From the NCBI GenBank assembly GCA_030737835.1, contig JAUJYN010000024.1, positions 25,438 through 89,437 of the forward strand: 64,000 nt of DNA, written 5' to 3'. Position 1 is the stretch's first letter. Each line of letters opens with the position of its first letter. The translations under genes and the position numbers were made by a program. Below, one piece after another: positions 16,831 to 53,805 of the stretch. The notes below the pieces were generated by a model that was not told where the DNA came from, searched no databases, and saw only the letters and a program-made list of their open reading frames with translations. The stretch comes from Acorus gramineus (taxonomy: Eukaryota > Streptophyta > Magnoliopsida > Acorales > Acoraceae).

Positions 16831-17659
16831 ACCCATTCATGCAATTAACTCTGATCGTGGTAAAGTGGTCTCAGGATCTAATGATCAGTCTGTAATAGTC
16901 TGGGATAAACAAACATTTCAAATTCTGGAAGAATTAAAGGGTCATGATGCACAGGTCTGAGAAATTCTTCAATTGTAATATGAAGTGCCATGTTTCTTTT
17001 CTGTAATAGTTCATCATTGAGAAGCAGTCTCATGCTTACAATTTTGATGTTTACAACTCAAGTTAATCATTAGAATTTAGGATCAATAGAGAAGGATTTG
17101 TGTCCATGCTAGATGGCAGTAATATAGGGCTTTAATTTGGGTTCTTTACTAGTTACATGATACAATTAGTATCATAACAATAATTTGGAAATCGTCAACT
17201 CTGATTTGCATAGCATTTCACTTAATGTATTTCTTTTCTTATTTTAGGTCAGTTCTGTAAAAATGCTATCAGGCGAGAGAGTCCTCACTGCTTCCCATGA
17301 TGGTACTGTAAAGATGTGGGATGTGAGAACTTATACTTGTGTGGCTACTGTTGGTCGTTGCTTGGGTGCCGTTCTGTGTATGGAGTATGATGATTCTACA
17401 GGGATCTTGGCAGCTGCTGGAAGGGGTGCGTATGTATATTAAAACTTATGAACATGTTTTTTTTAATGATTGTGCATATTGTATGTGCTTCGGTTTGATT
17501 ATAGCAGCTCTTGCATTTCAGGGTTGCAAATGTATGGGATATCCGTGCTAGTAGGCAGGTGCACAAACTTCTGGGGCATACTAAAGGGATTCAGTAGGAT
17601 TAAACATGCAGTGAATCAGTGCATTTGCTCTATGTCATTAGATATCCTCAACGTTTCAC

Positions 17660-29938: not shown

Positions 29939-32305
29939 ACCACGGGTGACATAGGATTTTGGGACTGACTAGGCTGTTGGTCACCCTTGGTCCACCGATA
30001 GTTTCTCCTCACTCCGTAGGTCGTTTGGCCACTCCCACGTTCAGCACAGTCCTTTACCAAAATCAGGAGGCACCTACTAATGGGAGCCCCTGCACTAGAC
30101 AACCTGTCTAACGCTGAGGTAGTCTCTACACGGATCCAACGAAGGGAACAGAACAGCCTACCCATCGCATATGATCCACTCGGATCCGCAGACAACACAT
30201 CATAACAACACTACTGTTCTGAATTCCTCAGAACCCACCAGGGCGCATAAGTACGATGCGGGGAACATGCATAAAGTTATAACAGGGTGGAATATCGTTG
30301 GGGAAAGAAACTCGGGAGGGCAGCGTGAGTTCCCGTTATAGGACACCCCGACAACCAAACAAGGAACACGGTGTACCCTAACCCGGGTCTCACCGCTGTC
30401 CTCGCAAGGCCCCTCCCCTATAATATTCACTATAACATGCAATTTGACAAGTACTAGCATTTAATTTAATAAATAAACTAGTAGGGCACATGCATCGATC
30501 GGGCTTCTTAGCATGGAACCAGGGGACATGCTGCATGGCTCATACACATTTCCTAAGGGTGCAAGTCCCTAACATGCAAAGTCTAGGGTAACATGCATTC
30601 TACAATTAAATCATGCTCGCATGATATACATATTACACATGTCAATATCTATCCATGGAGCCCTAGGAGAGGTCGGTACACGCCCAAACGCGTATAACAC
30701 CTCTCTACTGGGTTGGATTGTCCCACTCACCGGGTATCTGGGTCGTCGCGCGACCGTCCGTCTAGATCTGCAAGACAGACATTCAATATGGTGAGAACAA
30801 TGCATAAAATACCCAAAAATACATCTAAAATACCCAACACTAGGATAAACGTACATACGGCCCGTACGCACGTGTATCCGAGCATCCCGACTCACTCCCG
30901 AACCCACCGGGCAGCCGCACGCACGGCCACCCGCCTCGGGCGCACAGCCGAGCCCCGGCCCGCGCGCCAAGGCGCACTGCCGAGCCCAGCCCGCACACCC
31001 GGACACCACCGGCGCACTGTCGCACGCCGGCCCGCGCGCCCCGACGCACCGCCGCATGCACGCGCACGCTCGCGCGCGCCCGCGCGCACCGTGCGTCCAG
31101 CCCAGCGCGCCCCCGCGCGCACTGCACGCACGCGCATGCACTGGCCCCCAGCACCGCACGCACTGGCCCCCAGCACCGCGCCCAGGCGCATGCCCAGGCG
31201 CCCTGCCCAGCACCCAGGCACAGTGCCCAGGCGCCCTGCCCGCGCGCACGCACGCTTGCGCGCACGCCCACGCGCGCCCGCGCGCACCCGCGCGCACTCC
31301 CGCGCACACCCCCGCTCGCGCCAGCACCCGTGCGACCACTCCGCGCGCACCCGCGCACCCGCGCGCACGCACCCGACTGCGCCCGCCAGCGCCCAGCGCC
31401 CAACACCCGCGCCCAGAGCCCAGCACCCAGCGCCCAACGCCCGTGCCCAGTGCCCAGCACCCAGCGCCCAGCGCCACCCGCGCGCACGCCCGCACGCACG
31501 CACGCGCGCGCCCTACCAGTGGCCCTGCCTGCTGCGCCTGTGCTACCTGTGCTGCTGCCTGCCTGCCAGCCCGAGCTCCCTTACCACCCACCTCCGGCCA
31601 CCAATGGCCTCCGACCACGACTTCGATGGCCACCCACAGCCACCCACAGCCACCCAACCCCAAATCCATCCCCCTAGCATACATCTATGCAAGAAAAGAG
31701 AGGAAAAGAGGCTTACCAAGGGGAGGAAGCGAAGTCCGGTTGCTCTCCACGCACCGAAACCTCCCTCAAAAGGCTTCTAACGCCCGGATCTACCTCCACC
31801 ACCGAAATGGTTCAAATCAGGGAAGAAGAGAGGGGGGACGGAGGGGCAAATCTCGCCGGAATTCGAATTTGAAAGCACCGGGGTGTAGATCGGGACCCGA
31901 TCTACACTTCCTATGCTTTAGGTTTTAAGCTTTGAGGGCTCTAGGGGGGTCAAAAGTGAGAAAAAGAGAGAGGGGAGAGAGAAAAACTCATTTGGTAGGG
32001 ATGATGAATAGTACCTCGAAAATTAGATCCCATCCTTATATAGTGTGCGACTTAAAAACCCAGATACGCCCCGGAACTGCGAAATTTCGGAAACGTTACC
32101 GGAATTCAACGAAATTTTTGTGAGAGGTCTAAAACGGCACCAGGACACCAAATATGCAGTTAGATTTTCAATCGGAGTCCTCTAACTCAGGACGATAGCT
32201 AACAGTCCAAAAATTAGCGGTTCCGATCGAAAACCGAAAAAAACGAAAAACTGCCAGAACGCTCCAACGGTTACCAGCAGGCTAAAAAGTGACACATATA
32301 TAACA
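29078..32305 (-). mobile_element. Solo LTR A (3.2 kb) inserted in the MULE
   Basis: On the - strand it begins TGTTATATATGTGTCAC and ends GGGGCGTGACA, with TG...CA ends. Flanks cttac (29073-29077) and gttac (32306-32310) form a near-perfect 5-bp duplication. It carries a TATA box (actatataagg near 32040), a very GC-rich tract (about 30880-31560), and four ctcaccctcaccctc-bearing repeats (29600-29945). Only one LTR is present, with no internal region, so it is a solo LTR left by recombination. Length and style suggest a Ty3/gypsy family with long LTRs, not proven. It matches copy B closely, so it is probably fairly young. Confidence 0.85.
29600..29950 (-). repeat. Telomere-like G-rich repeats in solo LTR A
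   Basis: Four units of roughly 85-110 bp, each with ccaacccactacaccctcac and then ccctc repeats followed by gggtgac-aaggatattggga. The other strand carries (gggtga)n runs able in principle to form G-quadruplexes. The same block is in copies B and C. Confidence 0.8.
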
Positions 32306-32578: not shown

Positions 32579-34872
32579 TCATTCTTCAACGGCCACAGGA
32601 TTCCTGCATGTCTTCTTGTTGTGTCCAAATCCCTTACATCTCGAACATCGATTGTGAGTTATCGCATCTGGATCTGCCTGTGACTCTATTCTCTTTTTCT
32701 TCTTCCTCCCTGGCCTGATCTTTGTAAACGGAGGTTTGATGAATATGCTTCCTTCCTCCTCCTCAGCCGGTCTTTGAACGCCCACCACAGGTAGGATTGC
32801 ACCTGCATATGCTTGGCGAAAAGTATCCGATAGAAAATACGACGAACAATAATCATAGATGGAGCGGTTTATTTTCCATACTGCAGCACAAGCATGGATA
32901 CAGGGTAACCCAAACACTTGCCAGCCTCTACATGTGCACATGCGATCATTGAGGTTGACTGCTTCACCTCGTCGCCCACAGATCTCGAAATGATTTCCAT
33001 CTGAACACAACACTTGCAAACCACGACACCCTACTTGATGCTTCTCCATTTTTTCCATTATTGATGGGCATAAGTAAGTCTCCCACTCGCTAGCCTCATT
33101 ACGTCTTTTGTACATCATCTCCATCATTTGAACCCTTATATGATCAATCATCTGAACTATTGGGAGATTGCGGGCTTCAAGTATCCATGAATTGAAAGAC
33201 TCAGCACAGTTAGAGTACAATTCTCCATATCTTTCCCCTGGAAATAGGGCATTTGCCCAATGGTCTGGATCAGAATCTTCAACCCACTTTGCGGCTTGTT
33301 GAGAGAAACACCGCATTTCGGCTATGGCTTTTCTGTAATCTTCAATTCTCAATCCATAAGCTGCAGCATCTAGTAGTTGAAGCAATTTCCTTCTAACAGA
33401 AATATTGAATTTCCCAGTGATCGTCTCTTTAAAATTCATCTTCAAATGTCGTAAACAATGAGAATGATATGAGTCTGGAAAGACTGAAGGGACAGCTGAC
33501 ATTAAACCCTTACCCCTATCAGAAATGAATGTGATTCTTCGATCTGAAGATATGATCCCTCGTAAGCATGTTAATGTCCATGCCCAATTATCTTCTGTCT
33601 CTTGATCCACAACTGAAAATGCTAATGGAAAAAAACCGTCATTCCCATTCTTAGCAATGATCGCAAGCAAAATACCTTGGTACTTAGATTTTAAAAATGT
33701 TCCATCTAAAAACAACATGGGCCTACACCCAGTCTCAAAGCCAGCAATTACAGCACCAAAACTTACAAATACTCTTCGAAATCTATGATCTTCAGGAGTG
33801 CATTCCAACTCCACGTAGCTTCCAGGATTCGTATTCATTACCGCTGTAGCATACCATCGGAGATGATCAAATGAAAGTGCTTCATCTCCATGCAAATCCT
33901 TACAAGCTATCTCTTTTCCATGCCATGCCTTGTGGTAAGGTAAATTGATGCCATAATCTCTAAATACGTCCTTTACTATATCGCGAGGTCGATATAACGG
34001 AGAATCTATAAACTTCTTTCTTGTAATCTCACCCACCCATCTTCGTGATGCTCTAGGATGACCGTTTGTTGATATTCCTCCACCACATGAGTGAACGTTG
34101 TTCATCGTCTTGATTTGAAAGTAAGGACCCAACCCCACTCTAGAGCAATGTACACGCCATCCACATGAAGGAATCTTACACTTAACTGTCACCCTTACTC
34201 TGTCATTCTTCACGTACTCAAAATCAAATGAATGTGCTATGGCATAATTGGTCAGCTGAATTCGAAATTCTTCGACATCTTCAAACTGTTGATTGATTGA
34301 ATGAATGCAGTTATCCCAAAAACTTGTGAGCATCCCACTTGACGTACTCCCGCAAATGGCTTCCCCTTGGGTGACCATACTACAAGATGTAGGTGCAGTA
34401 TTTGTCATGTTCATTTGGACTGTGTTGGACATCCTGCAATTCATTTCAATTATGGGATGCATTAGGTATAATAATATATACAAAATTTTATCACTGTCTA
34501 TGTACACTATTAGTAATCTGTGTACACTAATAAAATTCTTACGAAATGACTATGAAAGAGTATAACATATTTTTACCTTATTCCTTCATCTCCGTCACAA
34601 GTTTGTCCATCATTGAGGGTAACATAGATTTCGACTACCATAGCCCCACACATCTTATGGATGTCGTACATCTTCTCTACGGCCTTATCGTTCCCAATAG
34701 TGGGTTTAATCATTGTTTTCCCTGGAATTTCATACTTCATAATAACTTTGGCCGCATCGAACCCCCATCTTTCCACTAATTCATTGACAATGTAAGCATA
34801 CGTTGTTGTTCTACATATACTAACTACCTCGGCATCTCCCATATATGTACAAGCAGCCATGATTGGTTCCAT
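32579..34872 (-). CDS. MULE transposase (two exons)
   Basis: Exon 1 is 34872-34577 and exon 2 is 34433-32579. The join at AAG|GTAAAA and TTGCAG|G keeps frame and gives about 716 aa. Exon 1 is a PB1-like N-terminal part (YIVNELVERWGFDAAKVIMK). Exon 2 has a MuDR-type DNA-binding region with a Cys/His cluster (about 175-220), then the RNase H-like DDE core: Asp342 (FLDGTFLKSKYQG), Asp404 (FISDRGKGL), the C-x2-H motif HCLRHL (425-428) and Glu510 (NCAESFNSW). A SWIM zinc finger CTC-x9-CIH (598-612) and a C-terminal CCHC knuckle CSRCKGFGHNKKTC (695-708) follow. It would bind the terminal repeats and cut and insert the element. No internal stop, all catalytic residues present, so it looks functional. 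It is transcribed inward from the right terminus, convergent with the Ulp1-like gene. Confidence 0.93.
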
Positions 34873-38883: not shown

Positions 38884-41800
38884 TTTTATACTTGTGTCAC
38901 TTTTACCTGCAGGTAACCGTTAGAGCGTCCTGGCAGTTTTAAAAATTTTTAGGGTTTTCGATCGGAACCGATTATTTTTGGACTGTTAGCTATCGTCCTG
39001 AGCTAGAGGACTCCGATTGGAAATCTAACTGCATATTTGGTGTCCTGGTGCCATTTTAGACCTCTCACGAAAATTTCATCGAATTCCGGCATCGTCTCCA
39101 AAAATTTCGCAGTTCCGAGGCGTATTCGGGTTTTTAAGTCGCGCACTATATAAATGGAATCTAAAATTCACCCCTGCACTATTCATCATCCCTACGACTT
39201 GCTCTCTCTCTCTCTCCTCCGTTTTTCTTCCGTTTGAGCCCCCTACACCCCTCAAAACCAAAAACCTAAAGCACGGGAAGTGTAGATCGGGTCCCAATCT
39301 ACGCTCCGGTGTCTTCAAATCCGAGTTCCGACGATCCTAGCCTCCCCGACCTCCCCTTTTCGTCCTCTGATTTGGCCCATTTCGAAGGCCAAGCTAGATC
39401 GGGGCGTGAGAAGGCTTTTGGGAAGGGTTTCGGCGCGTGGAGAGCCACCGGACGCCTCTTCCTCCCCTCGGTAAGCCTCCTTTCCCTCCTTTTTCTTGTC
39501 TAGATGATTGCTAGGGGGGGGGGGGGGTTTGTGTTTGGGAGGTGGTCGGTGGCAGTGGGGGTCGTCGGAGGGTGGTCGGAGGTGGTTGGAGGTGGTCGGC
39601 GGCAGTGGGAGGGGTGGTTGGAGGTGCTCGGCAGGCAGGGCCACTGTCCCGGGCAGCAGGCAGCAGCGGCAACGGCCCAGGTAGCGCATAGGCGGAGCGA
39701 GCATGCGGGCGTGCTAGTCGTGCAGGCGCGCGGGCGAGCTGATCGTGCGGGCATGCGGACGTGCTGGGCGGAGCGCACGGGTATGCTGGTGCGCGAGGAG
39801 CTGGTCCCGAGGGGTGCTAGCAGGCGGACAGTGGTGATGCTCGTGCAGATGTGGCGAGGCAGGGACTGGGGCGCGCGCGGAGGAGGCGCGAGGCGAGGAG
39901 CTGAACGCGAGGCGCGGCGGGGCAGGAAGGTGTGCGCGGGGGCGAGGCGCCACGCGCGGGGGCGTGCGGGGTGCTCGCGGGCCAGTGCACGGCGTGCGGG
40001 GCGCGTGCGGGCTGCCGCGGCTGGGCGCGGTGGACGCGCGGTGCCCCGGGCGGTGCGCGGAGTGCGTGGGCTGAGGCGCGGCGGCGCGTCCGGGCGGTCG
40101 GGTGGCCGTGCAGGTGGTGGCCGGCCGTGCGGATGGCTGCCGGGGGTGTTGGGTGTTGATTTGGGATCTTTGGGTGTTATTTGTGTGTGTTATGTATTTT
40201 TGGGGTCATTGTGGATTTATTCTAACCAGTTAATACCCTGTCTTGCAGATCTCGACGGACGGTCGCGCGTCGACCCGATTCCCGGTGAGTGGGACAATCC
40301 AACCCAGTAGAGAGGTGTTATACACACTTGGGCGTATACCGACCTCTCCTGGGGCACCGTGGATTATATTAACCTGTAATAATATGTATTGCATGTGAGC
40401 ATGATGAAAAATGTAGAATGCATGCTACCCTAGGCTTTTATGTTAGGGACTTGCACCCATAGGATAGGTGTAAGAGCCATGCACCATGCCTCCTGTTTCT
40501 TGTTAGGAAACCTCGACCTATGTATGCGTCCTACTAGTTTATTTATTAAATTAAGTACTAGTGTATGTTAAATCGCATGCCTTAGGATAATATTATAGGG
40601 AGGAGCCTTGCGAGGTCAACGCTGAGACCCGTGTTAGGGTGCTCCGTGTTCCTTGTTTGGTTGTCGGGATGTCCTGTATCGGGACCTCAGGCTGCCCTCC
40701 CAAGGTCCTAGTCCCAATAATATTATAAGTAATGTTGTATGTTTGGTATGATTATTAGCATGAGTAGTGAATATTATAGGGGAGGGACCTTGCGAGGACA
40801 GCGGTGAGACCCGGGTTAGGGTACTCCGTGTTCCTTGTTTGGTTGTCGGGGTATCCTATATCGGGAACTCACGCCGCCCTCCCGTGTTTCTTTCCCCCAG
40901 TGATATTCCAACACTGCTTTTGATTGTACTATTTCCCCGCATCTTGGATATGCGCCCTGGAGGAACTCTGAAGAGTTCATGACATTTGAGTTGGAGAGAT
41001 GTGTTGTCTGCGGATCCAAGTGGATCATATGCGATGGATAGGTTGTTCTGTTCCCTTCGTTGGATCCGGTAGAGACTACCCCCAGCGTTAGACAGGCCTT
41101 CCTAACAGAGGGCTCCCATCAGTAGGCACCTCCTGATTTAGGACGGACTGTGCTGAATGTGGGAGTAGACCAGGCGGCCTACGGAGTGGAGGAGAGACTA
41201 TCGGTGGATCAAGGGTGACCAACAGCCTAGTCAGTCCCAAAATCCTATGTCACCCATTGAAGGGTGAGGGTGAGGGTGTAGTGGGTTGGCGATGAACGAC
41301 CCACTGGAGTTGTGATTGGATGCTTGTAAGTCCCAAAATCCTATGTCACCCATTAAAGGGTGAGGGTGAGGGTGTGGCGGGTTGGCGGAAGCGACCCGCT
41401 GGTTTTGTGTAGCCAATCCCAATATCCTTTGTCGCCCATTGAAGGGTGAGGGTGAGGGTGTAGTGGGTTGGCGACTGAGCAACCCACGGCTTTGAGTTGT
41501 GCTATCATTTGTGGATTAAGTAATATGAATTGTGGATTATAAGGATATCTGGTTGTGGTCAATATTGTCTGTGATGCATGGGTTGTGCCGTTCACTGAGC
41601 ATGTGGCTCACCCCTCGCACAATATTTTTCTTCAGTGTCATCTGAGTCGGATCCGAAGGAGGAGCTCCCCGAGGGACTTCATCAGTAGCGGAGTAGCGCC
41701 ACGTCCCGCGAGTTGCAGAGACTATCAGCATCCCTTGTACCAGTATGTATTATTTTCCGTGCTTGGGCACGCGTTTGTGTTGTATTTGGACGTCTTTGTA

Positions 41801-44224: not shown

Positions 44225-44781
44225 TTGTTTAAAATGTGTAAAACCCTCTGTAAATAACGATTTTGCTCCTCCTGATAGATGATATGATCATCATTTATGA
44301 AATATTTTCTATATTTTAAATACATTATGGAGGGTTTTGATATATTATGTTTTCAGCAAGGGTTAATCAGACATATTATTCGTAGAAAAATTTAAATTTA
44401 TCAACAAAAATTTAACTCTGGGGTTATTTAGATTTACATCGGTGTTTTAAGGAGTAATATGGATTTTAGATTGTTTACAGGGGACTATATGGATTTTTCC
44501 CATATTTTATTTTATTTCTAATTTGGTTTTTATGGAGGATGCACTGAATGGATGGATTGAATTGATTCTTAGGCACTTTTTTCAATTAGATAATCGGATT
44601 AATAAAATAACTGTATGTGAGCTTTCAATAATAAAAAAAAAAAGGTTGATGGAAGAAAAGGCGCACCGGATCGACGGACGGAAAAATCTGGAAATACATT
44701 GTTACGTGCATCACCAAGGGTAATAGGCAACGTGTAATGCGGAATAATTCGGTTGATTAGTGGTTATTAATTAATCCATTT

Positions 44782-44825
44782 GTCCCACATCGATAAATAA
44801 TGATTTAATTAATTACTTTATATAA
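44782..44825 (+). promoter_or_regulatory. snRNA-type promoter (USE + TATA), copy 1
   Basis: GTCCCACATCG at 44782-44792 is an exact match to the plant snRNA upstream sequence element (RTCCCACATCG). TATATAA starts at 44819, leaving 26 bp between (24 to TTTATATAA). In plants a spacing near 24 bp goes with RNA polymerase III snRNA genes, and about 33 bp with polymerase II. Copies: 50362 and 51712. Confidence 0.5.
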
Positions 44826-44849
44826 CATTAGGTTGCTAGTTATATTGGT

Positions 44850-44979
44850 GAGTCCCATGAGGCATTGAAATGGTTGTATGGTTTATGGTGTTGCTTGTTA
44901 GGCCTGGTGCCTTAGATAATATTGTTGAAAAGCTTATGCCATAAACATACTTCCATTTCTTTTATATCTTTTTTTTTTT
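44850..44979 (+). ncRNA. Possible Pol III-transcribed structured RNA, copy 1
   Basis: About 130 nt from roughly 25-30 nt past the TATA box to a run of 11 T's at 44969-44979. 44876-44894 (gtatggtttatggtgttgc) can pair with 44932-44950 (gcttatgccataaacatac), closing a loop that includes the small hairpin aggc-ctggt-gcct. No match to U6, U3, 7SL or other RNAs I know. The start point and the RNA itself are inferred. A repeat with a chance promoter is the alternative. Confidence 0.35.
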
Positions 44980-45267
44980 CTGTTATGTTTTATTAAGTTT
45001 TTGGACTTTTTCTAAAAATCGTCTTTAACTCCATGAATTTTTCTAAAAATCGATGTGATTATCTAAAAATATATACTGATTTATTTAAATTTTATGGTTG
45101 CTTATGCCATAAACATACTTCAATTTCTTTTATATCTTTTTTTTTCTATTATGTTTTATTAAGTTTTTGGACTTTTTCTAAAAATCGTCTTTTAACTTCA
45201 TGAATTTTTCTAAAAATCGATGTGATTATCTAAAAATATATACTGATTTATTTAAATTTTATTAAAC
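44932..45267 (+). repeat. 168-bp tandem duplication
   Basis: gcttatgccataaacatact at 44932 recurs at 45100 and the two 168-bp units run side by side to about 45267, with few differences. The second unit is followed by the part also found at 45905-46130. Confidence 0.85.
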
Positions 45268-45504
45268 AAATTATGGTTTTATAGTCAAGGTATTATGCTT
45301 TTTATTGCTACTAATTTTGAGTTAAGAATGTATTATAGAATTTTGATTGGATTTTTAAATTGTTTTCTCTACTGATTTTGTAATGGAGTTGATGAAGCTA
45401 TAATTTTTTTTATTCAATCTCTGTAATGAGATTAAGGAGGTGAAAATGTTAGAAAATGACTAAATTTTATAGATTAAATGAGGTCTGATCGATATATTTT
45501 TTTA

Positions 45505-46365
45505 GGGAAAAATCTTCTTAAATCCCTGAAATCTTCTTGAAATCACAAAAAGTCCCCTTAAAATCAGAAAATTATCCTAAATCCCTGTAAAGTGTATATG
45601 GTTAACGAATTTAGTCACTCTATATAACATTAGGTTGCTAGTTATATTGGTGAGTCCCATGAGGCATTGAAATGGTTGTATGATTTATGGTGTTGCTTTT
45701 TTAGGCCTGGTGCCTTAGATAATGTTGTTCAAAAGCTTATGCCATAAACATACTTCCATTTCTTTTATATCTTTTTTTTTCCTGTTATGTTTTATTAAGT
45801 TTTTGGACTTTTTCTAAAAATCGTCTTAACTCCTTGGATTTTTCTAAAAATCATAAAAAATCGATGTGATTATCTAAAAATATATACTGATTTATTTAAA
45901 TTTTATTAAACAAATTATGGTTTTATAGTCAAGGTGTTATGCTTTTTATTGCTACTAATTTTGAGTTAAGAATGTATTATAGAATTTTGATTGGATTTTT
46001 AAATTGTTTTCTCTACTGATTTTGTAATGGAGTTGATGAAGTTATAATTTTTTTTATTCAGTCTCTGTAATGAGATTAAGGAGGTGAAAATATTGGAAAA
46101 TGACTCAATTTTATAGATCAAAGGGGGTGTTAAAAAATGACGGGGATATTCTGTTTTATAAAAGAACTAAATCTGATTTAATAAAGTTTGCATGGACTAA
46201 ATCCAATTTTAGTAAATTTCTGAGGACTTTTTTCAATATACTCTTGACTGAGGGACTAAATTCGTTAACCATATACATTTTATGGGGACCTAGGATGATT
46301 TTCTGACTTTAGAGGAATTTTTTGTGATTTGAAGAAGATTTCAAAGAGCTAAGAAAATTTTTCCC
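45505..46365. mobile_element. Inverted-repeat element enclosing a copy of the neighbouring block
   Basis: Left arm 45505-45614 (gggaaaaatcttcttaaatc ... ggttaacgaatttagtcact) pairs with right arm 46255-46365, about 110 bp at roughly 85 percent by eye. The inside, about 45617-46135, is a copy of 44819-45480, including the TATA box and RNA-like segment but not the USE. The T-rich flanks give no clean target duplication. It is either a MITE that picked up host sequence or a MITE pair flanking a duplicated block. Confidence 0.6.
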
Positions 46366-46392
46366 TATTTTTATTTATATATAACACATAAT

Positions 46393-46695
46393 CGCTACAA
46401 AAAAAAAATGGTCTTTTGCGATGGACCCAAACCATCGCACAAGATAGTCTAAACTGCCGCAAATAGTGTTTGCGGCTGTTGTGCGGCGGTTTTAACGGGA
46501 CCTCAACAACTTGCGTTGTAAAAAATTAGCTGCATTTATTTACCCGCCCCAAAAGGCTTTTTAGGGTGGTCTTTATAGTACCGTTCGCAAATATTTTTAT
46601 TTTCAACGGATTACTTGCCATCTCAAAAACGTTTTAAGGCAATTTTTGTCCGCCACAAAAGATGTCACCCAATTTGTTGGGTTATTTAATTGGTT
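46393..46695 (+). mobile_element. CACTA-like left end with subterminal repeats
   Basis: Starts CGCTACAAAAAAAAAATGG, close to the CACTACAA start of CACTA elements, followed by ctgccgcaaatagtgtttgc and ttgtgcggcggttttaacgg, the style of CACTA subterminal repeats. Interrupted at 46696 by another inverted-repeat element. attgccgcaaataattctg at 47988 looks like more of it. The far end was not found. Confidence 0.5.
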
Positions 46696-47969
46696 GGCTC
46701 TATTTGAGTCCCTCAAAATTGTAAGTAAACCTCTCTTAAATGAATTTTGTTGTCAAAGATTCATTTAGATTTTTTTAATAAGTATAAGTCCACCTAATTT
46801 TTTGCTAAAATATTTAGTTAAGATTCTTTTAATAAGCATACCCCCCATCTCATTTGAATTTATTTATTTATTTATAAAAGAAGAGAATTATACTTGGACA
46901 TTAATCTGGCCTCAATTTTGGGCATCAATGTACGCTCCAATTGAAATTTAATAGATATATATAAATGTGGATTTCAATTTTTTTTTGTATATGATCAATT
47001 TAAAATTTCTTATAATTTTTTATTTCCATTTTCACCAAAAAATAAAAAAAATTATATGTTTGATTGGCTAAATATTAATAAAAAAATCTATTTTTGTATG
47101 TGGATGAAAACTTTTTTTGTTGTTACGCCGAATTGATTTTTTATGCATGAAAACTTTTTTTTTTGGTGTTGAATATTATCTCTATGAATTCTATTTGACA
47201 ATTTTTAGGGATTTGATTTAAAAAAAAATTAATATCACATATTTCACAATATAATGAATCATATACTCTATATAAATAAATGCCCAATGTGAAATATTGG
47301 TATGAATGTCTTGCGGAAAGAAAAAAAAAAAAGCATTAGTATGAAGGGGATGTAATACATATATTAGAAATGACCAAATCACATAAACCATGTTTTTTTA
47401 AAATGAAATTTCAAATTTTTTTGATGTGATATAGAGAGAAAACCTTACCACCATTACAGAGATTTATAACTATCATATATCTTTCACATCTCCATATTCA
47501 AATAAATTCACGCTATAAGAAAAAGAAAAAAAAATGACAATCCTGAATAACACCCGAAATATAAATCCCTAAATTCTAATCAGCTATGGAAAAAAATATT
47601 TAAATATGGCTTGAATTGATCTTATCCCTTTTGAATTGGTCAAAACTAATTTAAGGTTTGAATAGAATGTGGTTCGATTGGATATGCATGTTAACAACTA
47701 ACAAATACACTTTAGATGTGTGGGGAAGTCGAACCGGTGAGGGCCAACAAATACACTTCAGATCTGTGGGGAAATCGAACTGGTGAGGGAGATCGAGTTT
47801 TTGGGGGAGTAGTCGAAGGGTAAGAGATAGGGTTTGACGTGAGAGGGGCTTACTTATTGTTTAAATATGGGGTTAATATATGGGGGGCTTATAAATTAAG
47901 TTATGAAAATGTGAGAGGCTTATTAATAAGAGGGGCTTACTTACAATTTTGAGGGGCTCAAATAGAACC
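46696..47969. mobile_element. Inverted-repeat element nested in the CACTA remnant (1.27 kb)
   Basis: Left end GGCTCTATTTGAGTCCCTCA pairs with the right end, whose reverse complement is GGTTCTATTTGAGCCCCTCA, continuing through aaaattgtaagtaa-cctct. Includes a short tandem duplication (47697-47790, tgtggggaa-tcgaac-ggtgagg). No transposase frame and no clear target duplication. Confidence 0.6.
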
Positions 47970-48904
47970 ACATTTGTGACAATCCCAAATTGCCGCAAAT
48001 AATTCTGAAAACAATTCACCGCTCAAATTAATATTTATTCAAATTCCTCCATAACATTCAAGTTATCATCCAATAAAATAATTCCAATTCCCTTAAGTTC
48101 TATTACGATCTTCATTCACAAGAAAAATAGATTATCACAAGTGAAATAAATATTTTGATTCAACAACTATGTTTACAATAGTGTGGATGAATATTAGTTC
48201 TTGAGTATGTATACAACAAATGTAACAAAATATCATTTTCTAAAAATGCACACACACTTATTCAATCAACGATTTGAAGATTTCACCTCAACATGTGAAC
48301 CAGGTAGCGCAGTGTCGTCCATTCTATTGGTAAGCAACTTTCAGGTGTGAAGGTTAGTGGAGTACATCCTTCGCTATGATATGATCTTCCATTGTAATAT
48401 ATACCTCGTTAGATGATGTATATACCTTATTAAATTTTTTCTTGCACTTATGGAAAATGGGCTCATTCAATTCGAAATGGAGCGAAGTGCACTTTTCATC
48501 AAAGCATATACCTCATTAAATGATGTTTACTATTTTAAAAAAAATGAAAACACTTGAAGTTTGAGTTTTTTATGGTAAATGTGACTGAGTGTATCATTTT
48601 CTATACATTAACATCAGTCAAGGAGACTAAAACTAAAAACAAATGACATGCTTGGATATTGCTAAGGTTCAATGAGAAAAATCCACTACAACACACATTG
48701 CCTAAGGTAACCTAAAACAAAATACCTGTTGATTTTGAATGACAAATGCTTCCTCGAGAGATGGACACAATAACTCCATCATCTGTGTATCAGAGAAATC
48801 ATAGTACTCGTGCACGCTTGGGCCAGGGACCAGGGATTATAGTGCACGCTCGCGATCATTGAAGCTCGGTCCCGAGCTCGAGTCGAACTTGAAACTAAAT
48901 GAGT
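47970..48904. other. AT-rich sequence, no gene
   Basis: Begins with a probable CACTA leftover and contains nothing else recognisable up to the hAT-like end near 48840-48955. Confidence 0.4.
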
Positions 48905-48955
48905 CAAGTTTGAACAGGTCAAAACTTGGCTCGTTCGACTCATTTACCACCCCTA
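48840..48955. mobile_element. hAT-like terminus
   Basis: The right end reads actcatttaccacccctaat. Its reverse complement starts TAGGGGTGGTAAATGAGTCG, typical of plant hAT ends, with gagctcgg-type subterminal units (gaagctcggtcccgagctcg). The matching left end was not found. A shorter equivalent is at 43805-43858 in block copy 1. Confidence 0.5.
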
Positions 48956-49351
48956 ATCTTGAGATCATAGACAATCAAATGACCAATCCATGATTTCAGT
49001 GTTTCTTTTTGTGAATTTCATCTTCAATCTTACAAATTGTTTAAAATGTGTAAAACGCTATGTAAATAACGATTTTACCCCTCCTCGTAGATTATAAACT
49101 TTATCTGGAGGGTAAAATCATTATTATAGAAGATTTTTCACATTTTAATACATTATGAAGGGTTTTGATATATTATGTTTTCAGTTAGGGTTAACTAAAC
49201 AGAATATTCACAGAATAATTGAAATTTGTCTAGGAAAATTTAACTTAGGGGGTTATTTAGATTTACATAGGTGTTTCCAGGGGTTATATGGATTTTAGAT
49301 TGTCTACAGGGGGCTATATGAATTTTTCCCTTAATGTTTTTTTATTTTTAA

Positions 49352-50090
49352 GGGCTTTTTGTATATATACCACCAAAAATATATTATTTATTTGTATACT
49401 ACCACAAAGAACGTATTTATTTGTATATCATTATAATTTTTCTTAATGTAAAAATATGCCACTCTTTTATTGTTTTTTTAACTAAAATGAACCTTAACTA
49501 TAGTTAGTCTTTTAATCAAGAAGTAAAAATGACAAAAATAACATTAACATATAATATTTGTCATAATGTAAATAATTAACATAATAACCTAAATAATCTC
49601 ATGTTCTTTCCAAATATACCATGAGCCATTCAACCTTACCCCTTCTTTCTTTATCTTCCAATCAAGTTCCAGATTTTTTTTTTAATTTATCATTTTGTAA
49701 TATATATAATTAAATATTCTCAAATTAGTTTTATTTCATTTTTACTAATGTAATTTTTAATAATTATTGTCTTTGCTAATAAATAATTTGTATGTTTAAT
49801 TTTTATGATTTTGGATTTTAGATTAAATTTATCATTTTCATATTAAAATTAATATTTTTAGTTTTATAAATATTGTATTTGGTAAGACAAAATATGCAAA
49901 ATAAAAAAATAAGGGTACTTTGGTCATTTTCCCATGACTTTAACAGTTTTAATAGAGATTTGAATAAAATTAACTAGGATGGTAAATATGCATAATATTT
50001 ATAAATTCCAATAGTATAAAAATAAATAGATTATTTAGAGTGGTATAAAAATAAATAGGATATTTTTGAATGGTATACATGAAAAAGCCC
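49352..50090. mobile_element. Mutator-type MITE (739 bp)
   Basis: Left end GGGCTTTTTGTATATATACC and right end (reverse complement) GGGCTTTTTCATGTATACCA, with similarity running about 50 bp. Perfect 9-bp duplications TATTTTTAA at 49343-49351 and 50091-50099. The empty site in block copy 1 is TATTTCTAA at 44513-44521. No coding frame. A diverged relative lies at about 52285-52540. Confidence 0.9.
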
Positions 50091-50361
50091 TATTTTTAAT
50101 TTGGTTTTTATGGAGGATGCACTGAATGGATGGATTGAATTGATTCTTAGACAATTTTTTCAATTAGATAATTGGATTAATAAAATAACTGTATGTGAGC
50201 TTTCAATATAAAAAAAAAAAAAAAGTTGATGGAAGAAAAGGCGCACCGGATCGACGGACGGAAAAATCTGGAAATACATTGTTACGTGCATCACCAAGGG
50301 TAATAGGCAACGTGTAATGCGGAATAATTCGGTTGATTAGTGGTTATTAATTAATCCATTT

Positions 50362-50405
50362 GTCCCACATCGAGAAATAATGATTTAATTAATTACTTTA
50401 TATAA
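50362..50405 (+). promoter_or_regulatory. snRNA-type promoter (USE + TATA), copy 2
   Basis: GTCCCACATCG at 50362-50372, TATATAA at 50399-50405, with the same 26-bp gap as copy 1 and one base different in the spacer. Confidence 0.5.
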
Positions 50406-50429
50406 CATTAGGTTGCTAGTTATATTGGT

Positions 50430-50558
50430 GAGTCCCATGAGGCATTGAAATGGTTGTATGGTTTATGGTGTTGCTTGTTAGGCCTGGTGCCTTAGATAAT
50501 ATTGTTGAAAAGCTTATGCCATAAACATACTTCCATTTCTTTTACATCTTTTTTTTTT
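50430..50558 (+). ncRNA. Possible Pol III-transcribed structured RNA, copy 2
   Basis: Same as copy 1: the pairing arms gtatggtttatggtgttgc and gcttatgccataaacatac are identical, and a T-run at about 50549-50558 follows. Start point inferred from TATA position. Confidence 0.35.
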
Positions 50559-50590
50559 CTGTTATGTTTTATTAAGTTTTTGGACTTTTC

Positions 50591-51589
50591 GGGCTTTATA
50601 TGCATCAAAATCAACATAGATGAATAAATCCTGAGCTATAGCCATGTTAGTAATCAGATTTTCATTTCTTTTACTTTTTTTTTTAGTTTTATCATCAGGT
50701 GATCTATGTTTATGAATCTTGAAAAAAAATATCCATTATGCGTTTATAAAAATATAAAAAAATTTATATCAAAGCATATATCTCGTTAATGTGAATATAT
50801 ATAGCTACCAAAGCATACAAGGTTGAAATTCGCCAATTGAGGCCATAAAAATGATTGAGATGTTAATATCAACTTATCAAACAAACAATTTTTTCATGAA
50901 TAAATTCCTTTCTACTCTTAGACAAGGGATCATAATTAATTGACTCAAATCATGATTAAATCTTGATGTCTGTTCTGATTTATTAGTTGGATAATGTTAC
51001 ATACAATCCCAATTTCAGTCGACAGAATTTTGATTTTTTTAAAAATAATATACTTCATACAATGAGGTATATGCTTTTATAAAATTGAAGCATATACCAC
51101 AATAATTTGCATAAATGCATTTATAGAAAATATAAAAAAATTTCTATCAAAGCATATACTTCGTTAATATGAGTATATAGAGCTACCAAATCATACAAGG
51201 TTGGAATTGGTCAATTGGGCCAGAAAAAGGATTGTGTGTAACAATACTTTAGTTTGTTAAAGAAAATATCTCCACAATTAAAAATAAATTTTTTATAAAA
51301 TCATAATAAAATATGAAACAAACAAATAAATAAATATAAAATTTTAAAAAGGGAGGATAAAAATAAAAAAAAAACATAGAAGTCTCTATAAAGAATAATT
51401 AAATTGAACAAGGAATTTCCAATCAAAGGCATTTTTTTAGGTTATCTAAGAAACAAACAAAAAAAAAAAAATCTACAAAAGAAATTTTTAAAAAACCAAT
51501 GGGAGATTAGGATAATTCTTTTTTGAAAAAACTGAAGGTTAATATAAAAATCATCCAACGCCAACTTTTATAAAGCATGTGTACAAAAA
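50591..51589. repeat. AT-rich sequence with a diverged dispersed repeat
   Basis: The piece caaagcatatatctcgttaa-tgtgaatatata with nearby caaagcatacaaggttg occurs at about 50770-50830 and, changed, at 51150-51210 and 52977-53010. No coding content and no clear ends. Confidence 0.5.
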
Positions 51590-51800
51590 TAAAATAACTG
51601 TACGAGTTGGTTCAATGTAAAAAAAAGTTGATAGAAGAAAAGGCGGAAAAAATCTGGAAATACATTGTTACATGCATCAAGGGTTATAGGCAACGCGTAA
51701 TTAACGCATTTGTCCCACATCGATTAATAATTATTTTATTAATGGCTTTATATGACAATAGGTTGATGGATTATTCACCGAGTCCTAACCCCTAAAATAA
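51590..51800 (+). repeat. Diverged third copy of the promoter-like block
   Basis: Shares gttgatagaagaaaaggcg, tctggaaatacattgttaca, taggcaacgcgtaat and then GTCCCACATCG (51712-51722) and TATATGA (51749-51755) with the blocks at 44640-44830 and 50220-50410. The spacing between promoter elements is kept although the spacer has changed and a stretch (cggaataattcggttgatta) is missing. Downstream similarity fades after about 51770. Confidence 0.6.
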
Positions 51801-53805
51801 TATTGATTTATTATAATACCACAATCAGACAAGGATATCATGAATCCTTTCATGAGATTTATTTTTCTCCTCACCTCAAGAGGGACGTATACACAAAATG
51901 GTGGGTTCAGGACGTGGAATGAAGCTCCAAGACAAATAGTTATTTTTGACCTAATAAAATCTGATAGTTATTTTTTGTATAAGCCCTTATCATATGCATT
52001 GATAGGGTTGGGTGGTGGGGGACTACTGGATGAGATGGTGTCTTTGAGGAGGTTTAGGAAAGCAAAGGTTTGTGTCTTTATTAGAAGACAACTTTGTTGT
52101 TCTTTTTTTACTATTCTTCATGACAAGCATATCCAGATAGTTAACATAACTATCAGATTTTATTAGGTCAAAATAAATAGTTTTTTTTTACTATTCTTCT
52201 TTATTCTGGGTTAACCCTGACATATTATCTTCCATAATAATATTAGACAGAATAACATTTAGCACTTTTTGTTTTTTTTTATGCTATAAAAAGAAATATA
52301 ATTTTTCGATGATATCAAAATAAATGTTGTAGTATGTAATGGTAAATATAAAAAATTAAGGATATTTTAGTAATTTATCCATGACGTTAATGGTATTAAT
52401 AAAAAATTTGACGAAAATTAAAGATGATAAAAATGCATAATTTTTAAATATTTTAATGATGTGTAAATAAATAGACTATTTGTGATGACAAAAAATTAAA
52501 TACCATATTTTTGAACGGTATATACGTAGACCCCAAAAAAAAACTGAGTGTTACCGCCCCTTAGGTTTTGTATAAGCCCACGTGTTATGATGTTATCCTA
52601 TTTCTTTTAACAAGATAATTAATAATATATATTTAGATAAAACATGATAATTTTTGTATTTAGAAAAATATAATGTTACATATATTTCTGAGAATCCATC
52701 ATACGATCGTCATGTATGTTCATACATTTTTGTATTGTTTTTTTTTCCTTGGTGGGTTATTTTTTTCCTTAAAATCTTCCTTAACTCAAATCCCATCCTA
52801 TCAAGAGAACTATATATATAGATAATATTACGTACAATCCCATTTCTAGCCTACACATGCATGTGTTTTTTAAAAATAGTATATATTATTTAATAAGGTA
52901 TATGTTTTATAAAAAATGAATCATATATCCTAATAAATTATATAAATGCATTTATAAAAAATATAAAATTTATATCGAAGCATATATCTCGTTAATATGC
53001 GTATATATATTCCGTTAATTTTTTTTATCGACGAATGAGACTGGAATTGAGGTTGGAAAAAAATCATATGTAACAACACACTCTCTCTCTATATATAATA
53101 TTAATTATTTACATAAAAAATAAAAAAAATGCATAATTCATTTAATAACAAATATAAGTGACTATACGATATACCAGAGCCTGAAAATAATGCCTGCATG
53201 TAATAATCGTATTCTATTTTGAAGAATGTCGAGTCACTACGACCCAAAAAAAACAGACTTCGCCAACTATTGTAACACAAATGATTGTCATTCATATTTT
53301 GCCTTAACATGCCTAACGCAGCACAAAATTAGAACAAAGATTTAATCAGCATTGAGATCCTTCAACAAACCATAATTATTAACAAAAAAATAAAATTAAA
53401 AAATATATTAATAAAAACTGCCAATCTTAAATTACAAATCTCCCTTTTATATCAAAAGTTACAAAAAATAGTAAAAAACAGAAATTTGTTATAAGTAACT
53501 CTAGAGGATCCTAGAAGATCTCTGGATTTGATTTCATTCAAATTCGAGTTATTTTGAAGGAGATATTCTCAATCTAAAAAGTTACTAAAAATAACAAAAA
53601 TGCCATTTTGAGGGCCGAAAAATGAAAAAATAAACGCCCATGGCGTAACACAACATTTGAAGATCCCCTCGATATCTACCTACAATAAAAATTTTAGGCG
53701 ATTCTGAGTTCGGGGCGCCATTTATTTCTATTAGCCAGTTTTTCTATAAATATTTAAAAATCTCAAAATAGACCCTTTCAGGTTCATCGCTCCCCGAACG
53801 TGTCG
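51801..53805. other. AT-rich intergenic sequence
   Basis: No gene recognised. The 108-codon frame at 51840-52166 has no known domain and starts in repeat sequence. 52285-52540 resembles the right part of the 739-bp MITE. 52820-53010 resembles 51000-51190. Confidence 0.4.

Follow-up and report, generated by a model that had tools for sequence, protein, structure and literature searches.

A small, locally duplicated family of putative U6-type Pol III units with a microRNA-precursor-like hairpin in Acorus gramineus

In plants, transcription of microRNA (miRNA) genes by RNA polymerase III (Pol III) is associated with the interface-induced MIRNA loci of Cuscuta campestris (Hudzik et al. 2023, Plant Cell, as presented in the commentary PMC10226582). 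According to PMC10745700 and PMC10226582, these loci carry an upstream sequence element (USE) ~55 bp (54-55) ahead of the transcription start, and their transcripts are uncapped and have poly-T ends. Pol III transcription of miRNA-like precursors is also reported for the milRNAs of Neurospora, a fungal system (PMC3547838). Among the papers listed in literature searches, titles and abstract openings named no Pol III-made plant miRNAs outside Cuscuta, and a 2025 genome paper states that, as far as its authors are aware, primary miRNA transcripts made by Pol III are a feature of Cuscuta only (PMC12506650). Here we describe an element in a 64,000-nt stretch of Acorus gramineus DNA (the window; contig JAUJYN010000024.1, hereafter C62, of the 398.6-Mb, 137-contig plant assembly that was searched) which resembles the Cuscuta loci, as described in these sources, in its upstream USE, its miRNA-like hairpin and the poly-T stretch at its end. 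We tentatively read it as a family of type 3 (U6-type) Pol III units that is young, spread by local duplication and would make a miRNA-like hairpin. Positions refer to the window and to its + strand unless stated otherwise.

The USE, GTCCCACATCG, occurs as an exact match at 44782-44792 (copy a), 50362-50372 (copy b) and 51712-51722 (third copy), with no further exact match and a single one-mismatch match (at 17312) in the window. All three sites agree at 11/11 positions with RTCCCACATCG, the plant small nuclear RNA (snRNA) USE consensus as quoted in PMC9845283. When one mismatch was allowed, shuffled sequences held 0.99 matches on average and 2/100 reached four. In line with the initial annotation, which had pointed to an exact USE and a TATA box at like spacing in three places, 24 nt past the last USE base lie TTTATATAAC in copy a (44817-44826), TTTATATAAC in copy b (50397-50406) and the TATA-like TTTATATGAC in the third copy (51747-51756); counted to TATAW, the distance in copies a and b is 26 nt. 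The third copy was rightly said to have diverged around its promoter: USE, TATA and spacing are kept, the 24-nt spacer differs from that of copy a at 5/24 positions without a change in length, and a hairpin homolog is absent downstream. Farther along, at 51838-51862, there is a 7-bp hairpin with a T5 a few bases on, unrelated to the main hairpin. Upstream of the USE, the promoter-bearing copies share a block (44601-44781 in copy a, 50179-50361 in copy b), of which the third copy has a diverged version (51588-51711). The 211 nt upstream were found in the genome only beside promoter-bearing and third copies, and because the search did not detect the block elsewhere, it is not a piece of other USE/TATA families.

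Plant snRNA genes transcribed by Pol III differ from those transcribed by RNA polymerase II (Pol II) in USE-TATA spacing, as set out in PMC9845283. As a reference from the same genome we used the six best-scoring of 30 loci reported among 48 Rfam U6 matches, two pairs of which are nearly identical upstream. These six loci show a USE (exact in four, with CATATCG instead of CACATCG in two), a gap of 24 nt and then TTTATTAA, with the RNA beginning 29 nt downstream of the first T in this box; the USE-TATA gap of copies a and b equals theirs to the nucleotide. Genome-wide, the pattern USE-N20-28-TATAW gave 364 matches (double registers counted) vs 2 for the reversed pattern, so the pairing of USE and TATA is not due to chance. 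Distances of 29-40 nt accounted for 43 matches, which reduce to 36 distinct places; in 28 of these the gap is 32-34 nt. Eight loci sampled from this latter class included three U1, one U4 and one U5 at or above the Rfam gathering score, as well as a U4atac match under the threshold (E = 0.00025). USE-TATA pairs in this genome mostly split into two spacing classes, with the element on the Pol III side. Besides the USE, it shares with the U6 genes the 24-nt gap to a TTTAT box and a T-run, but its body is unrelated to U6 and without an Rfam match. Applied to copy a, the U6 geometry predicts a transcription start at 44847 (GGTGAGTCCC; range 44846-44848, the TGG of TGGTGAGTCCC), with its counterpart in copy b at 50427. 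The last USE base would then lie 55 bp from the predicted start, compared with the 54-55 bp given for Cuscuta in the sources above.

The hairpin begins 20 nt past the predicted start. In copy a it occupies 44867-44959, with 44867-44896 pairing with 44930-44959 through 26 bp interrupted by small internal loops, plus an inner AGGC/GCCT hairpin; copy b (50447-50539) is identical. Both the arm pairing of ~18 bp and the inner hairpin of the initial annotation are present, within a stem that turned out to be longer. Folded alone, this miRNA-precursor-like hairpin reaches -31.6 kcal/mol at a GC content of 36.6%, with a minimal folding free energy index (MFEI) of 0.93 and a z-score of -4.95 (0/1000 dinucleotide shuffles match it). 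In the 64-kb window, 3/3280 segments of 93 nt with GC <=45%, both strands counted, fold equally well, none of these being the element itself, which the 31-nt step skipped. The stretches 44876-44896 (5′ arm) and 44930-44951 (3′ arm) are possible 5p and 3p products. A candidate duplex of 44876-44896 and 44930-44950 has two unpaired positions on the 5′ side and two on the 3′ side, within the plant MIRNA criteria of a 20-24-nt duplex with <=5 mismatched positions, 3 in asymmetric bulges.

A T-run follows the hairpin in each of the first two copies, as annotated: T11 at 44969-44979 in copy a, a candidate Pol III terminator, preceded by a T4 at 44960-44963, and T10 at 50549-50558 in copy b. Within the bodies of the seven promoter-bearing copies in the genome (see below), the longest T-run is 3 or 4. 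The T-run alone is weak evidence, since T-rich tails also end promoterless copies and some distant relatives. According to our favoured reading, USE and TATA, with their Pol III-type spacing, would direct initiation at ~44847. After transcribing the imperfect hairpin of 26 bp, Pol III would terminate in the T-run, so that the predicted RNA measures roughly 113-130 nt. From this, a Dicer-like enzyme would most likely cut a small-RNA duplex formed by 44876-44896 and 44930-44951.

A U6-type promoter with a stable hairpin shortly past the predicted start would also suit a Pol III transcript that works as a structured RNA, e.g. a lineage-specific nuclear RNA, and not as a miRNA precursor. We consider this improbable. 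Rfam covariance models gave 0 matches at gathering score over the whole window and, in 44600-46200, nothing overlapping the hairpins up to E = 10, which agrees with the initial annotation, whose author knew of no matching RNA. A C/D or H/ACA box layout was not seen by eye, and the element has one dominant hairpin whose loop and arms both vary between copies. Identity as a tRNA, snRNA or small nucleolar RNA was rejected for want of matches.

Searching the genome with a 204-nt query yielded seven copies with the promoter (two each on C62 and contig C33, three on contig C2), three copies of the hairpin lacking a USE (one each on C62, C2 and C33) and two promoter-only third copies (C62 and C2). 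It also picked up a partial match on contig C61 and, from the 3′ part, three short pieces. Most copies lie in one neighbourhood. Since the arrangement on C2 mirrors that on C62, the two probably represent haplotypes or else a recent duplication; the copy at C2:1943875, called the far copy below, is more distant (93%). All seven promoter-bearing copies keep USE, TATA, hairpin and T-run, and the count of USE-TATA spacing over genomic copies that had been proposed at the outset gave the 24-nt gap in 7/7.

The promoterless copy in the window (45621-45780) keeps the TATA and, as noted earlier, both arms, lacks the USE, and has its hairpin at 45669-45762 with a T6 in the loop. This T6 is found in the loops of the USE-less hairpin copies, while those of the seven promoter-bearing copies hold at most TT. 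As a T6 in the loop would stop Pol III early, the difference fits use of the promoter-bearing copies, although the USE-less copies, each on its own contig, may all three represent a single locus and thus one event. Further fragments comprise a relative of the tail without the self-complementary 3′ arm (50632-50700) and, downstream of copy a, a lone tandem copy of 3′ arm plus tail (45102-45150, within 45095-45160) that could also pair with the 5′ arm.

Copies a and b form direct repeats of ~500 nt, 5.58 kb apart (44513-45010 vs 50091-50589, 97.8% alike), an arrangement that could point to retrotransposon long terminal repeats (LTRs) or to a Pol II promoter of a longer unrecognised transcript, with the USE likeness incidental. 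An LTR-like family with the same geometry exists in the genome, some members of which show TGGTATCAGAG after an LTR-like end. Of the readings weighed here we nevertheless regard this one as the least probable. Collinear homology between a and b extends upstream at 80-84% (43809-43949/48897-49045 and 44225-44521/49037-49351), and we therefore regard the copies as products of tandem duplication rather than as paired LTRs. The ends of the block are not TG...CA, and the window lacks an exact copy of TGGTATCAGAG, the one primer-binding-site motif looked for. No reading frame of at least 110 residues lies wholly within 44500-51800. Pol II snRNA genes in this genome have 32-34 nt between USE and TATAW, whereas the element has 26 nt. 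Copy b also contains ~739 extra nt (49352-50090) flanked on both sides by TATTTTTAA; with its imperfect inverted ends (49374-49439/50003-50068), this insertion looks like a miniature inverted-repeat transposable element with a 9-nt target-site duplication (TATTTTTAA). Origin as an LTR or terminal-repeat retrotransposon in miniature, the case named beforehand as refuting the Pol III proposal, was looked for in the block and not found, and was rejected on account of the upstream homology, the copy-b insertion, the block ends and the missing motif; the copies are, in addition, few (C62, C2, C33) and the element is not dispersed. That the block is far more alike than its upstream side could reflect conversion, recent copying or selection.

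Six distinct hairpin sequences were available for comparison. Their stems show five substitutions, two of which (columns 38 and 98) form a compensatory change from U-A to G-U, the others being at columns 44, 109 and 114; all 180 cells pair. Random substitution would break no pair with P 0.0026 for five changes and 0.009 for four; one substitution, that at column 114, borders on the T-run and might be left out of the count. A covariance model of the hairpin, applied to the window and 14 loci, gave 20 matches, made up of the hairpin copies, C61 (57 bits), a C2 locus near 16 Mb (42 bits) and the hairpins' opposite strand (15-23 bits).

These two loci belong to a set of USE-less relatives that are informative about the origin of the hairpin: the C61 relative is 84% alike over 44847-44941, that at C2:16.24 Mb is 80% alike over 44859-44942, and one at C2:4.04 Mb corresponds to the tail only (L089; two AT-rich units related to the element's tail, without a hairpin arm). 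The C61 match starts exactly at the predicted transcription start, which may be the trace of a transcript copied back, or chance, and was given no weight. Tail relatives read approximately CTTATGCCATGTTAGTTATCAGACTTCC with variations and hairpin copies CTTATGCCATAAACATACTTCC (with two changes in the far copy), whose AAACATA stretch pairs with the 5′ arm. Because the tail relatives hold a different sequence at its place, the 3′ arm looks derived, and a template switch would produce it in one step. The relatives on C61 (L084, 1494-1590) and C2 (L088, 225-357) share a short reading frame, ExVxWFxxLxVRPxALxxxxQKL, for which a parent gene was not found; the 68-residue C61 peptide had no Pfam match and a 30-residue part of it no PDB match. 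The frame corresponding to that of C61 is broken by TGA in both the far copy and the promoterless copy of the window, and the element was consequently rejected as coding.

Such an origin is central to the explanation that ranks close behind a Pol III hairpin precursor, namely that the family is untranscribed repeat debris: an LTR-family-like promoter block, locally duplicated, with a hairpin that arose when a degenerate repeat underwent something like a template switch, both being out of use. The existence of USE-less relatives (C61, C2 16.24 Mb, C2 4.04 Mb) and the derived look of the 3′ arm both favour it, as does the commonness of the promoter geometry among repeats. To gauge the latter, 40 segments with USE and TATA were compared, a sample that was not random: 27 of the first 30 listed USE-TATA loci (three second TATA registers were dropped), 12 hand-chosen ones from that list and from the T6 search below, and the window, with one place present twice (L022, L100). 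Three of the 40 represent the element itself, namely copy a, the far copy and one further copy; the other 37, from 36 places, fall into five similarity groups of 16, 15, 2, 2 and 2 members, the two-member groups lying on two contigs each, and one such pair could be two haplotypes. The spacing to TATAW is 26 nt in 26 segments, 24 in 10, 25 in 3 and 27 in 1. Examples from such repeat families are L014-L040 and L097-L108, in which TATAW follows the USE after 24-27 nt, as opposed to 32-34 nt in Pol II snRNA genes. The largest group is LTR-like, some members showing an end such as GGGCGTTACA followed by TGGTATCAGAGC, a motif like the initiator-tRNA-Met primer-binding site. Twelve fetched loci of the 20-28-nt class gave 0 Rfam matches at gathering score. 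A genome-wide pattern search for U6-type units with a T6 run 117-147 nt past the TATA found 24 distinct places, seven of them the element; spacers at the other 17 resemble the sampled repeat families, as judged by eye. Such families (e.g. that of L023) have USE and TATA equally spaced but differ from the element in that their copies lie on several contigs and do not cluster with it, and the largest differs further by the LTR-like end and primer-binding-site-like motif of some members.

Several of our results weigh against transcription by Pol III and processing of the hairpin, and some of them directly favour debris. All 36 of the 36 other sampled places with U6-type geometry lie in repeat families, and since that geometry is common in repeats, it cannot alone prove Pol III use. 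Promoter and hairpin also come apart, in that USE-less copies retain the hairpin and the third copy has the promoter but no hairpin. Folded together with its flanks, the hairpin has z-scores of only -2.47 and -2.19, and at any GC 167/4124 segments reach its energy and 27/4124 its MFEI. In a shuffle control for covariation, 73/500 reached the observed values, a weak outcome because only six related sequences exist. The conservation test consisted of six pairwise comparisons. In one of them the far copy differs more in the element (11/176) than in its flanks (18/718; p = 0.0175), with 8/91 changes in the hairpin, so plain sequence constraint is not seen; in the first copy on C2 and both copies on C33 (C2a, C33a, C33b) the element has changed less than its flanks, albeit non-significantly (p = 0.147, 0.384 and 0.087). 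The p-values for the second copies on C62 and C2 (C62b, 0.001; C2b, 0.0001) were left unused, as they rest on downstream flank past the end of homology. In the far-copy arms, the changes show a period-3 pattern, resting on five changes. Finally, one guessed guide out of several conceivable ones, a 21-nt 3p sequence, gave no evidence for a target: it has 13 sites inside the family and 15 outside it, the latter all with three mismatches, and these 15 compare with 20 in the reversed-pattern control and represent no excess.

On the other side, debris would not readily account for seven copies that keep the exact USE, TATA, gap and T-run, for stem changes that all keep pairing, or for an upstream block found nowhere else in the genome. 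Of the initial annotation's two broader claims, that of an snRNA-type Pol III promoter before a foldable sequence stands as regards the U6 geometry and the strong hairpin, but the same geometry in repeat families tells against it; the argument that spacing kept while the spacer changes indicates use is weakened by the five other families and by the hairpin-less third copy.

Compared with Cuscuta, with its 146 to 156 loci marked by induction in haustoria, the present case is one small local family. The plants differ as well. Plastid ndh genes are reported lost in Cuscuta and most parasitic lineages, a loss usually accompanied by that of the nuclear ones (PMC12784084). Two exon-sized NdhM matches lie in open stretches of the present genome, so that the host keeps NdhM, whereas Cuscuta is listed with ndh loss (same source), nuclear loss there being deduced from the lineage pattern. 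One might propose, doubtful as this more general idea is, that MIRNA genes with U6-type promoters are transcribed by Pol III in a non-Cuscuta plant with NdhM retained, and that they arise when a U6-type promoter block is placed before a young self-complementary repeat, the arms then diverging fast with pairing kept. If true, this would amount to a Pol III route to new miRNAs that is not tied to parasitism. Irrespective of the element, LTR-like families on the U6 side of the spacing split offer a test of whether spacing decides the polymerase in plants.

Elsewhere in the window, the - strand carries a reading frame with a Prolamin-like domain (PF05617; 57310-57729) and a long frame with MULE transposase, MuDR DNA-binding and SWIM domains (32579-34549). 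Overlapping long frames rich in Ala, Arg, Pro and Gly codons occur on both strands at 30611-31928 and 39315-40310.

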